Shown here piece by piece: positions 13,035 through 49,710 of a stretch of 64,000 bases of DNA; position 1 is the stretch's first letter, and every line of letters starts with the position of its first letter. The notes beneath the pieces were generated by a model. That model had not been told where the DNA came from, did not search any database, and saw only the letters and a list, made by a program, of their open reading frames with translations. Made by a program: the position numbers and the translations under genes. The stretch lies in assembly GCF_002237645.1 (NCBI RefSeq), contig NZ_MJUZ01000011.1, positions 124,001-188,000 of the forward strand, read 5' to 3'. The DNA comes from Desulfovibrio sp. MES5 (GTDB lineage: Bacteria; Desulfobacterota; Desulfovibrionia; Desulfovibrionales; Desulfovibrionaceae).

Positions 13035-14030
13035 TTAGACAAAGACTTCGCCCGCGCCCCTGCTGACAACCAGCTTGCTCTCGGCCTCAAGGCGGCGCAC
13101 GATCTTTACGATATTCTGCTGCGCGGCTTCCACGTCCGAAAGCTTGGTGGGGCCCATGTACTCCAGTTCTTCGCGTATCATGTTGCCCGCGCGCTCGGAC
13201 ATGTTCTTGAAGAATTTTTCCTTGAGATCGTCGCTGGCGCCACGCAGGGCCAGGGTGAGGTCCTCGTTGGAGATTTCCTTGAGCATTTCCCGCACGCCCC
13301 TGTCGTCAATATTCTTGCAGTCCTCAAACACGAACATGAGGTTGCGGATATCTTCGGCCATCTGGGCGGAGTCTTCTTCGATCTCGGACAGGACTTCTTC
13401 TTCGGTGGCACGGTCCACGGCATTGAGGATTTCGGCCACAGACTGGACGCCGCCCACTTTTTTGCCTTCCTTGCCGCCCATGGCGATAAGCTGGCTTGTG
13501 AGCACCTTGTCCACTTCCATAAGCATGTCTTCAGGCACAGCCTCAAGGCGCGCCAGACGCATGAGCACCTCGGCGCGCACGCCTGCGGGCAGGCTTGTCA
13601 ATAAATTGGCGGCCTGATCGGGGTGCAGGTGGCCGAGAATGAGCGCCAGGGTCTGCGGATGTTCATTACGCAAAATTTGTGAAAGAAGGCGGGGGCTCAC
13701 CTGCTCAAGTTCGCGGAAGGGCGCTGGCCCGGTTTCAAGACTGAGCGAGTCCATAATGTACTTGGCGGTTTCAGGATCAAGGTTCTTGACCAGCAGGCGC
13801 TTGAGAATATCGCTGCCGCCCGCGATCATGTCCACGCCTTCCACCAGGGACTCATGAAAGTCGCGCAGCACTTCCTCGACATCTTCACGCGGCACTGGCT
13901 CCAAGTCCACAATGGCTTTGGAGATTTCGGCTATTTCCTGCCTGTCCATGCGCTTGAACACGTCGGCCGTGAACTTGTCGCCCATGGCGAGCAGCAGCAC
14001 GGCTATGCGCTGTTTGCCGGTCAGCTCCAT
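13035..14030 (-). CDS. fliG: Flagellar motor switch protein FliG
   Basis: C-ring rotor protein that binds FliF at its N-terminus and the MotA stator at its C-terminus. 331 residues; I use ATG 14030 (MELTGKQRIAVLLLAMG), which has AAGGAG eight bases upstream, rather than the GTG five codons earlier. The middle-domain EHPQT motif (NEHPQTLALILGHL) is present. The C-terminal domain has the charged torque helix region (EDIRNLMFVFEDCKNIDDRG...LALRGASDDLKEKFFKNMS). Length is normal. It is separated from the upstream fliF region by a ~150-bp palindromic repeat, and its FliF-binding domain is the likely target of the 73-residue ORF next door. Confidence 0.96.
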   Translation of the reverse strand: MELTGKQRIAVLLLAMGDKFTADVFKRMDRQEIAEISKAIVDLEPVPREDVEEVLRDFHESLVEGVDMIAGGSDILKRLLVKNLDPETAKYIMDSLSLETGPAPFRELEQVSPRLLSQILRNEHPQTLALILGHLHPDQAANLLTSLPAGVRAEVLMRLARLEAVPEDMLMEVDKVLTSQLIAMGGKEGKKVGGVQSVAEILNAVDRATEEEVLSEIEEDSAQMAEDIRNLMFVFEDCKNIDDRGVREMLKEISNEDLTLALRGASDDLKEKFFKNMSERAGNMIREELEYMGPTKLSDVEAAQQNIVKIVRRLEAESKLVVSRGAGEVFV

Positions 14031-14071
14031 CCTCAACTCCTTCACCTCGGCCCTGGGGCGGAGGCATTTTA

Positions 14072-14222
14072 GAAAACACTGATTAAAGAGCCCCTTGGAA
14101 AGGCTCAGTTATTTCGTTTGGCAAGGCGCGATCTTTTTTTTGAAGCAGGAGTGGACTCTTCCGTCCTCGACTGTTTCAAAAAAAGTGAAGCGACGCCGCC
14201 AAACGGAATACATCAGCGTTTC
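14072..14222 (+). repeat. Family A palindromic repeat, copy 1
   Basis: A 150-bp imperfect palindrome between the 73-aa ORF stop and fliG. It runs from AACACTGATTAAAGAG to AATACATCAGCGTTTCC, with internal arms TTTCGTTTGGC / GCCAAACGGAATA and CTTTTTTTGAA / TTTCAAAAAAAG around a GGACTCTTCCGTCC core. A same-orientation copy is at 16371-16521 and an inverted copy at 49562-49710. It starts two bases from the stop codon of the neighbouring gene. Confidence 0.88.
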
Positions 14223-14224
14223 CT

Positions 14225-14446
14225 TTAATCCTTGTCAGAAAGCCAGCGCTTGATAAGCCGCACGGCCTGATCCATATGCTGCTCCGTAATGCGGAACAGC
14301 CGCAGCTTCAATTCTTCAACCCGCTGATTTGTCTCTTTCTGCGCCCGGCGCAATGTCTTGAGCTGGGTGAGAGAAGCCGACGCGGGGTCGCTTTCTTTGC
14401 CTGTCAGCAGGCTTGTTCGTGACGGACTAGGCTTTAACTGTTTCAT
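14225..14446 (-). CDS. Small protein carrying a second copy of the FliF C-terminal FliG-binding motif
   Basis: 73 residues; no family name known to me. Its start overlaps the fliF stop by 20 bases in another frame, and it ends just before repeat A copy 1, upstream of fliG. Residues ~43-72 (VEELKLRLFRITEQHMDQ then AVRLIKRWL) align without gaps to the last 30 or so residues of FliF (IEALKAHIFSLSDNHMEQ then VVTLVRGWM): about 10 identities and 10 conservative changes in 30 positions by eye. In other bacteria that FliF tail is the helix pair that docks into FliG-N. The N-terminal ~40 residues are Ser/Thr/Lys-rich and probably disordered. Inference: a free FliG-binding peptide that may cap, compete with or assist FliF-FliG assembly. 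Translational coupling to fliF is likely. Confidence 0.72.
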   Translation of the reverse strand: MKQLKPSPSRTSLLTGKESDPASASLTQLKTLRRAQKETNQRVEELKLRLFRITEQHMDQAVRLIKRWLSDKD

Positions 14447-16076
14447 CTCTCTTCATCCAGCCGCGCACCAGTGTCACCACCTGTTCCATATGGTTGTCCG
14501 ACAGGCTGAAGATGTGCGCTTTCAGTGCTTCAATGTCCTTGAACATCAGATCGTCCTCGTCATCAGCATCGCCCATCGACGATTCGTCTTCAGTTCTGGC
14601 GGCCTCTTCCAGAGCCTCATAGAGAGCAAGCTGCTCTTCGGCGGCAGGCAGACCTTCCAGACCTTCGACCATTTCGCCCGCTTCGACCTTGGGGCGGATA
14701 AGCGCCAACACCACAGGCCGCACGATAAGCATCAGGAACAGGAATGCCAGCAGCGCGTTGAGTAGGGGCTTGCCCAGACGCTCGGCGTAGTCGGCCAGCA
14801 TGTCGGCAAAGTTGGGGTCCTTGGGCGGCTCCGAGTCGGTAAAGGGCGCAGAGCTGACTTCCAAAGCATCGCCCCGGCCCGTGTCCAGCCCCACAGCGTT
14901 GTGCACCAGCTGGCGCACCCGCTCAAGCTCTTCACTCTTGCGCGGCATAAAGGTCCAGACGCCATCGGTCTTTACATACGTGCCATCAATGAGGACTGCA
15001 ACCGTCAAACGGCGCAATTCACCCACATTTGAAACAATCTGCTGTTCTTCCTTGTTGATTTCATAGTTGGTGGTACGCGATTCACGCGTGCCGCTCTGGT
15101 CTGAAACCGAACCGGTGATGCCGTCGCCACGAAAATTTACATCCGGCGCGCCCGCTTCAAGATTGGCGCGGCCCTGCTGGCTTTCTTCCTGACGGTATTC
15201 ACTGCGAACCGCTGTTTTTTCAGGATCAAAAAGCTCGCGGCGTATGGTCTTCTGGCTGAAATCCATATCGGCATTGACCTTGGCGATAACACGGCCAGAG
15301 CCAAAAAGGGGCTGCAGCATTTCTTCAATGCGGCGTTCAAGGTTGCGCTGCACGGTCTGGCGGTATTCCATCTGAGTGGTCGTGATGCCCGCCAGGCTGT
15401 CTTCTTCCGGCTGGTAAAGAACCTTGCCGCTGGTGTCGGTGATGGAAACATGGGCTCTGTCCAGCCCTTCAACGGACATGAGCATCATGTTGAGAATGGC
15501 GTTGATTTCTTTCTGGTCGATCTTGATATTGGCCCGGGTAAGCTTGAGAACCACCGAGGCCGAAGGAGACTGGCGCTCTTCGACAAAAAGGCTGCGGCGC
15601 GGGATGACCAGATGCACGCGGGCGCTTTCAACACCGGGAAACTGGCTGATGGTGCGGGCCAGTTCCCCCTGGAGCGCGCGTGAGTAGTTGATCTTCTGCA
15701 CAAAGTCGGTTTGGCCGACCTTGACCTTGTCAAAAATCTCAAAACCAATGCCCTGCCCTACCAGGCCGCCTTCGCCCGCTATCTTGATGCGCTGGTCGTA
15801 AACCACTTCCTGGGGCACCATAATAGTGGCCCCGTTGTCGGTGATACGGTAGGCCACCTTGTCGCCCTGCAAGGTCTTGATGACCACGTTGGCGTCTTCA
15901 GGACCAAGGTTTGAATAAAGAACCCGGTATTCGGGGCGGGTCATCCAGATGGAAAGACCAATGACCGCAGCCAGCAGCCCGACAGCCCCGCCAACGGAAG
16001 CAACGCGTTGCAGTGGGCTCATCTTGGCCCATATCGCCGTGAAGGAGTTGACGAATTGTTGAATGAATGCAGGCAT
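14427..16076 (-). CDS. fliF: Flagellar MS-ring protein FliF
   Basis: Inner-membrane ring protein on which the basal body is built. 549 residues from ATG 16076 with AGGAG upstream. Transmembrane helices at about 24-45 and 440-465. The first periplasmic ring-building domain has the typical YRVLYSNLGPEDANVVI, and ARVHLVIPRRSLFVEERQSPSASVVLKL marks the conserved secretin-like core (residues about 168-195). The cytoplasmic C-terminus (HMEQVVTLVRGWMKRD) is the FliG-binding segment. Its own sigma-54 promoter lies ~50 bases upstream of the start. Its last 20 bases overlap the 73-aa ORF that duplicates this segment. Two same-orientation family A repeats bracket the pair. Confidence 0.96.
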   Translation of the reverse strand: MPAFIQQFVNSFTAIWAKMSPLQRVASVGGAVGLLAAVIGLSIWMTRPEYRVLYSNLGPEDANVVIKTLQGDKVAYRITDNGATIMVPQEVVYDQRIKIAGEGGLVGQGIGFEIFDKVKVGQTDFVQKINYSRALQGELARTISQFPGVESARVHLVIPRRSLFVEERQSPSASVVLKLTRANIKIDQKEINAILNMMLMSVEGLDRAHVSITDTSGKVLYQPEEDSLAGITTTQMEYRQTVQRNLERRIEEMLQPLFGSGRVIAKVNADMDFSQKTIRRELFDPEKTAVRSEYRQEESQQGRANLEAGAPDVNFRGDGITGSVSDQSGTRESRTTNYEINKEEQQIVSNVGELRRLTVAVLIDGTYVKTDGVWTFMPRKSEELERVRQLVHNAVGLDTGRGDALEVSSAPFTDSEPPKDPNFADMLADYAERLGKPLLNALLAFLFLMLIVRPVVLALIRPKVEAGEMVEGLEGLPAAEEQLALYEALEEAARTEDESSMGDADDEDDLMFKDIEALKAHIFSLSDNHMEQVVTLVRGWMKRDETVKA

Positions 16077-16137
16077 GTTCCGCTCCTGTGCGCGTAAGCG
16101 CTGGTTTTCCGACGCCAGGGCCGGGCTTTACTAGCCA

Positions 16138-16154
16138 TAGCAAGAGCTATGCCA
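16138..16154 (-). promoter_or_regulatory. Sigma-54 promoter for fliF
   Basis: Minus strand reads TGGCATAGCTCTTGCTA. The -24 GG and -12 GC are separated by exactly 10 bases, matching the TGGCAC-N5-TTGC consensus at 9 of 10 informative positions. The predicted start is near 16128, giving a ~50-base leader before fliF. Confidence 0.78.
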
Positions 16155-16370
16155 CTATATCGCATACGGATTTGACAGGGCGCATCTGGTTGCGTGGCCT
16201 GCCGCGTGAAGCTCAAATTCGTGACGCAAAAAAACCTTTCCCCAGCGGCAGAGCCACATGAGGAAAGGTCGTTCAGGAGTACGCGTTCGTCGGGCAGAGA
16301 ATTGTGTTGGCCGGATATGAACTGTCTATAGTTACGCCGTAAAAGGTAAGCCCCCGGCAAACGTCATCTA

Positions 16371-16521
16371 GGGAAGCACTGATTAAAGAGCCTCCTGAAA
16401 ACGCGCAGTTATTTCGTTTGGCAAGACGCGATCTTTTTGAAAGCAGGAGTGGACTCTTCCGTCCTTAACTGTTTCAAAAAAAGTGAAGCAACACCGCCAA
16501 ACGGAATAAATCAGCGTTTCC
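16371..16521 (+). repeat. Family A palindromic repeat, copy 2
   Basis: Same orientation as copy 1 and highly similar (GGGAAGCACTGATTAAAGAG ... AATAAATCAGCGTTTCCC). The ends form terminal inverted repeats of about 14 bases (GGGAARCRCTGATT). It abuts the fliE stop codon and lies between fliE and the fliF sigma-54 promoter, so it could terminate the flgB-flgC-fliE transcript. Confidence 0.88.
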
Positions 16522-16968
16522 CTAGAACTGCATCTTTGAAATTTCTTTATACGCTTCCAGAACCTTGCCGCGCACAGCGGTCGTCAGCTTCATGGCAAGA
16601 CTCGACTTCTGCATGGTGATCATGAGTTCCTGCACGTTTTGCGTGCGCCCAGAAGCGAAGTCATCGATGGCATTGTCCTTCACGTTCTGTAACTGATTTA
16701 CCTTGTTGAGCGAGTCTTTGAGCGTTCCTGTAAAGCTGTTCTCGGGCATCACGGGCGTTGAAGCCCTGCCGGGGAACTGCATCTTGTCTATCTGAGCGCC
16801 GAAGTTTTCACCGGTATCCACCTGGCTGCGGGCAAGGCTCTGATCCAGAGTGCGGGAAAAAAGCGTCTGCCCGCCGACCGCCGACCCTTGCTGCAAGCTG
16901 CCTGAAACCTTGTTGAAATGCTGTATGGCTTCGCTATAGGCGCGCATGCCCGTTGCCTGAATGCTCAT
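16522..16968 (-). CDS. fliE: Flagellar hook-basal body protein FliE
   Basis: Small periplasmic adaptor joining the MS ring to the proximal rod. 148 residues, longer than the usual 100-115 because of an N-terminal extension of about 40 residues. The conserved C-terminal part is clear: FTGTLKDSLNKVNQLQ, then DDFASGRTQNVQELMITMQK, LAMKLTTAVRGKVLEAYKEI and a hydrophobic end. Start ATG 16968 has AGGAG seven bases upstream. It lies in the standard order flgB-flgC-fliE. A palindromic repeat begins at its stop codon. Confidence 0.93.
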   Translation of the reverse strand: MSIQATGMRAYSEAIQHFNKVSGSLQQGSAVGGQTLFSRTLDQSLARSQVDTGENFGAQIDKMQFPGRASTPVMPENSFTGTLKDSLNKVNQLQNVKDNAIDDFASGRTQNVQELMITMQKSSLAMKLTTAVRGKVLEAYKEISKMQF

Positions 16969-49561: not shown

Positions 49562-49710
49562 GGAAACGCTGATTTATTCCGTTTGGCGGCGTTGCTTCAC
49601 TTTTTTTGAAACAGTCGAGGACGGAAGAGTCCACTCCTGCTTCAAAAAAAGATCGCGCCTTGCCAAACGAAATAACTGCGCGTTTCCAGGAGGCTCTTTA
49701 ATCAGTGCCT
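49562..49710 (-). repeat. Family A palindromic repeat, copy 3 (inverted)
   Basis: Reverse-complement orientation to the two flagellar copies (GGAAACGCTGATTTATTCC ... CTTTAATCAGTGCCTCC), nearly identical through the core. It lies between the rhodanese gene and the aminotransferase gene. Confidence 0.88.

Follow-up and report, generated by a model that had tools for sequence, protein, structure and literature searches.

The window, a 64,000-nt stretch of contig NZ_MJUZ01000011.1 of Desulfovibrio sp. MES5, carries on its minus strand the flagellar genes fliF and fliG and, between them, a small ORF whose predicted product resembles part of the C-terminal tail of FliF (Table 1). The fliG start codon lies about 194 bases past the ORF stop. 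The first-pass annotation had described a 73-aa ORF that overlaps fliF by 20 bases and is followed by fliG, and the coordinates agree with it on each of these points. The overlap recurs in related genomes: the ATG lies within fliF in 22 of 26 loci of the genus, those in which both ends were found by script, with an overlap of 20 bases in 16 and of 14–32 bases in the other six.

Table 1. Features of the fliF–ORF–fliG locus, in positions of the window
Feature	Position	Strand	Remarks
73-aa ORF, relative of the FliF tail encoded on its own	14225..14446	minus	ATG start
ORF residues 42–69, tail-like core with invariant R42 (matched stretch proper, 43–69)	14240..14323	minus	
ORF residues 1–24, variable in sequence and length	14375..14446	minus	pN/pS 0.83 (residues 8–24); low pLDDT at 1–3 and 9–18
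Overlap of fliF end and ORF start, 20 bases	14427..14446	minus	purine-rich GGATGAAGAGAG directly before the ATG
fliF, 549 aa	14427..16076	minus	both FliF Pfam domains (PF01514 YscJ_FliF, PF08345 YscJ_FliF_C)
FliF residues 515–541, tail resembled by the ORF	14454..14534	minus	PDB chains of Salmonella-type FliF align here with their C-terminal end
fliG, presumed partner of the ORF product	13035..14030	minus	three FliG Pfam domains; conserved ATG at 14030

The surroundings of the ORF also include a repeat some 140 bases long, dispersed and in part self-complementary, found in the window at 14082–14222, 16382–16520 and 49563–49702, so that one copy stands between the ORF and fliG and another upstream of fliF. 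The genome of the window holds at least 40 copies, 89–100% identical (40 of 64 candidates were scored). A search of Rfam with positions 13900–16700, which span the ORF, fliF and repeat copies, gave no match at the gathering score.

The ORF product and the FliF tail

Residues 43–69 of the ORF align without gaps to residues 515–541 of FliF, with 10 identities in 31 residues. Against the C-terminal 70 residues of FliF the ORF has a BLOSUM62 local score of 70, while 5000 shuffles of the ORF gave a mean of 22.9 and a maximum of 51, which, together with the conservation of the ORF among genomes, rules out a chance similarity. The gap-free alignment reported in the first-pass annotation, with about 10 of 30 residues identical, is therefore borne out. 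The match is indeed to the tail, but it stops 8 residues short of the FliF end and does not take in the very last residues as had been stated. The description of the ORF as a duplicate of the tail holds in the sense of related sequence, but probable old paralogue is the better term, since at the DNA level the two 31-codon stretches share only 52 of 93 bases, with the best agreement at codon position 2 (23/31), which rules out a recent duplication.

A profile was built from the FliF tails of 12 genera that lack the ORF, with leave-one-out scores of 57.4–77.0 bits. All 26 ORF cores of the window's genus match it, at 19.7–53.1 bits (mean 40.2), compared with at most 10.5 bits for shuffled cores, and the FliF tails of the same genus score a mean of 30.8 bits. 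In 21 of the 22 loci compared, the ORF scores higher than the tail of the adjoining FliF, the other four of the 26 having been left out because the script found no FliF tail there. In the other ORF-bearing genera the order is reversed, with FliF tails at 43.8 bits, ORFs at 26.2 and FliF ahead in 6/6. Taken together, the scores indicate that FliF tails have departed from the family pattern where the ORF is present, and most of all in the window's genus (branch 1.32).

With the FliF C-terminal tail that co-folds with FliG-N, the ORF shares an anchor pattern of about 30 residues, a helix (predicted for the ORF) and adjacent coding, and a tryptophan near the end is kept in 25 of the 26 ORFs of the genus. 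It differs in being a separate product with no membrane anchor or ring domains, in having an arginine at position 42 that is invariant among the ORFs (in the FliF tails compared this is D within the genus, and in other genera K, R, T, S or H), and in being basic, with a pI of 10.4 against 5.5 for the acidic FliF tail. AlphaFold, run with 36 rows, predicts the ORF as one helix of residues 21–72, with block means of 92–97 for residues 31–70 and pLDDT below 50 in the two N-terminal stretches listed in Table 1. Since the lone helix is already predicted with confidence, its confidence could not report docking to a partner.

Family searches placed the ORF in no named family. In Pfam the ORF had no match up to E 1, and neither YscJ_FliF nor YscJ_FliF_C was found in any of 16 family members; the best NCBIfam match, at E 0.046, was far below its cut-off, and PHROGs gave no match at 0.01. 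Flagellar export chaperones include FliS, FliT and FlgN, and families of that type were absent from the Pfam matches of the 16 members up to E 1. Among solved structures, no flagellar chain was found by the ORF profile, the FliF-tail profile or the FliF tail alone, while full FliF and full FliG do find such chains (5wuj_B and 5tdy_B for FliG). A protein search returned 302 relatives at E ≤ 0.01, and among the 120 listed are 11 of 67–74 aa that NCBI names 'flagellar M-ring protein FliF'. These entries are members of the ORF's own family and the name is misleading, because no FliF Pfam domain was found in the window's ORF or in the 16 members tested. Some Desulfovibrio 'FliF' entries would accordingly need correction as proteins with only a tail-like stretch.

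Conservation and origin

The genus was sampled in 57 genomes, 37 of them (including that of the window) taken initially and 20 more from a search of 247 genomes of the family. Among the 37, the ORF is a separate frame in 26 and full-length FliF is present in 27; in the 27th (G004) the contig stops in a run of G just past the ORF start. Of the further 20, the 15 that carry the ORF all have a full-length FliF ending at it, and no full-length FliF was detected at E 1e-10 in any of the five that do not. For the genus as a whole, full-length FliF is present in 42 of 57 genomes and the ORF stands directly behind fliF in 41 of these 42, the contig being cut inside the ORF in the remaining one, and an intact ORF occurs in 0 of the 15 genomes without full-length FliF. 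The first-pass annotation had held that absence from related genomes would speak against the ORF, and it is this wide retention that was found instead.

The substitution pattern also indicates selection on the protein. Over residues 25–73 the mean pN/pS is 0.34 (325 pairs, 26 ORFs), and in eight pairs with dS below 0.6 dN/dS ranges from 0.02 (L007–L009) to 0.36 (L010–L012); residues 8–24 have the far higher value given in Table 1, with many pair values above 1 at few sites. On these comparative grounds the ORF is a real gene, its tail-like core under purifying selection, and what had been annotated as a separate ORF can be described as a conserved gene encoding a separate protein related to FliF's FliG-binding tail.

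Several of the 15 genomes without full-length FliF retain altered versions of the locus. The decayed flagellar locus of G036 (L028) has a remnant in which the FliF start, the ORF core and a truncated FliG lie in one 337-codon frame; the same frame recurs in the Candidatus Desulfovibrio kirbyi record (L139), and an AlphaFold model of it, in which ORF core and FliG belong to one chain, has a mean pLDDT of 48.6, too low for the model to be used. In G006, G243, G264 and G282 a much shortened FliF-like protein precedes a divergent FliG and there is no ORF, 'FliF-like' being our reading of weak alignments (E 1.5e-7 to 9e-6) of proteins with no FliF Pfam match. In G006 (L156, G006:C1:500400-502500) the FliF-like protein and FliG are fused in one 689-codon frame, a natural fusion.

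Separate small ORFs also stand behind fliF in three more genera, labelled here g19 (G107), g52 (G099, G127 and G146) and g54 (G102 and G210), all of them divergent copies. Two further genomes, G148 of g54 and G151, which was binned with g19, also have two matches each; G151, which in the part shown has the same FliF tail as G210, does not enter the trees. In g52 and g54, fliG does not follow the ORF in the stretch read but is on another contig or more than 1 million bases off, indicating that the ORF travels with fliF. In these two genera the ORF starts past the fliF stop, once by about 300 bases, and in two cases AGG lies directly before the ATG. Altogether 20 stretches were read, seven with the ORF and 13 without; one of the latter (L105) was dropped for its masked bases, leaving 12 ORF-less genera. 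Of these, fliG was seen in 10, its estimated start lying, relative to the fliF stop, between −17 and +42 bases in nine genera and at +167 in one, and none of the 10 has an ORF of this sort between fliF and fliG. A search of 120 genomes of the order at E ≤ 0.001 gave no clear separate ORF outside the family. A 60-aa open frame in G306 (G306:C5:27394-27543), also outside the family, matches the ORF profile at E 2.1e-5; this genome is 43% complete and the frame may be a broken fliF.

A FliG tree built on 30 of 43 rows separates the ORF-bearing genera from the rest by a single branch, with figures of 99/97. A tree of the cores, with 32 columns and 65 distinct sequences among 72 rows, groups the ORFs of the genus with one another (88/93), and likewise those of the other genera (91/88), and the AU test does not reject a single clade that unites the 28 ORFs (p-AU 0.527), a result that is weak alone given cores of 32 columns. 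The core tree and the FliG tree together suggest that one old duplication of the fliF 3' end probably gave rise to the ORFs.

Possible roles in rotor assembly

FliG-N is described in published work as altering its fold on meeting the FliF tail, the two co-folding into one split domain at 1:1 (PMC7355467, PMC6079021), and in the ring the FliG-D1 fold is completed by a motif from a neighbour (PMC11087270). In addition, mVenus-FliG was reported to need the presence of FlhF to be stable in E. coli (PMC11236974). It is on this fold change, and on the instability of FliG without a partner in a heterologous host, that our choice among the possible roles is based: tentatively, and with less than even confidence, we favour a role for the ORF product as a free FliG-N ligand that acts as placeholder or chaperone while the rotor is assembled, and rank this ahead of a competitor or dosage device. 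Translation of the ORF would be coupled to that of fliF, and the product made in step with FliF; it would bind in the FliG-N groove with which the tail of FliF co-folds, and a free tail made at the fliF end could thereby supply the missing half of FliG-N before the MS ring is ready. A placeholder is favoured by the score beyond all shuffles, the match to the tail profile, the co-occurrence with full-length FliF, the purifying selection, the single FliG locus of the window's genome and the presence of the ORF in three more genera. Counting against it are the lack of a matching change in FliG-N, the separation of fliG from the ORF in g52 and g54, the assembly of FliG with no gene of this kind in the majority of bacteria and in ORF-less genera of this family and order, and the FlhF-like proteins, possible stabilisers of FliG, that are matched in carriers too (all below the family cut-off).

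The same binding logic would serve a brake, in which the free tail occupies FliG, shrinks the pool able to join MS rings and so limits the number of flagella; the place behind fliF and the overlapping start, which suggest production in step with FliF, fit it as well. Such a brake is nevertheless unlikely, as an optional device is less naturally expected to be kept in every examined genome of the genus with full-length FliF, and the FlhF-like matches in carriers and non-carriers alike also speak against it, weak as that test is with every match below cut-off. Equally unlikely is a built-in rotor part, with the free tail filling FliG-N grooves that FliF tails do not reach, so that a C ring could have more FliG than the MS ring has FliF, or sharing grooves with the FliF tail. 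In its favour, the ORF fits the family pattern better than its own FliF tail in nearly all loci compared in the genus, and one Salmonella study counted 33 subunits in the MS ring and 34 in the C ring (PMC11087270). On the other hand, the number of FliG in E. coli is about 34 at any FliG level, which has been ascribed to 34 FliF (PMC10128058), a wider C ring accompanies a wider MS ring in Campylobacter (PMC12222027), and in the other ORF-bearing genera it is the FliF tail that fits the pattern better. MS rings of several sizes have been found (PMC10198558). The boldest version, in which this clade has split the two-ring joint of the rotor, a freed second tail serving as a working motor part in FliG-N grooves beside or in place of the FliF tail and uncoupling FliG number or switching from FliF number, we regard as the least likely of the roles proposed for a separate product.

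A different partner in place of FliG-N, such as FliF or a factor in export or polarity, would suit the invariant arginine and basic charge that set the ORF apart from FliF tails, as well as its going with fliF and not with fliG in g52 and g54; the retained anchor pattern of the FliF tail, including the tryptophan, argues the other way, and we consider such a partner slightly less likely than the brake, though ahead of the split joint. That there is no separate protein at all, the ORF being untranslated or a frameshift at the fliF end giving FliF a second tail, is very improbable. The overlap of the frames would allow a frameshift, but this is disfavoured by g52 and g54, where the ORF is separate from fliF, and an untranslated ORF is disfavoured by the purifying selection on residues 25–73 and the co-occurrence with full-length FliF. 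In the nitrate table of a D. desulfuricans transcriptome, fliF (Ddes_1573) appears and no gene there is identifiable as the ORF (PMC5701242).

What appears to be new is that a known FliF–FliG interaction module has been set free as a gene of its own. The first-pass annotation knew of no such protein, and none was recognised in a literature search of titles, abstract openings and passages that took in few subscription papers; Desulfovibrio is absent from an article that describes an inner-membrane structure related to flagella (PMC9380563). Among known systems, the FliG-interaction domain of FlhF is likewise a ligand that stabilises FliG in assembly, as proposed for the ORF, but it is built of three strands plus a single helix, and its binding to FliG is chiefly to the M and C domains (PMC11236974), whereas the ORF is predicted as one helix. 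The FliF–FliG fusion of Chlamydia and artificial FliF–FliG fusions also rearrange the joint (PMC4768692); they join two proteins, while the ORF would be half of the joint, freed as an extra copy. If it is such a conserved free half, the ORF would be a natural tool for asking how FliG is kept ready before assembly, whether a tethered FliF is required for each FliG, and what determines the size of the rings.

FlhF relatives control the place and number of flagella. The ORF as a substitute for a missing FlhF was considered: FlhF-like matches occur in all 25 genomes searched, carriers and non-carriers, yet all are under the family cut-off and 14 of 14 control genomes match too, which makes this a weak test. 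A second fliG served by the ORF is ruled out for the window's genome, in which the FliG_N model finds one fliG frame. Nor was a change in FliG-N matching the presence of the ORF found, its mean identity being 0.61 between the genus and ORF-less genera and likewise 0.61 among ORF-less genera, which rules out an altered FliG-N in carriers at this level. At a single site, position 25 of the FliG alignment, D is found in 26/26 of the genus and in 6/7 from the other ORF-bearing genera, and E in 10/10 of the ORF-less; this split may reflect mere kinship or contact with the free tail.
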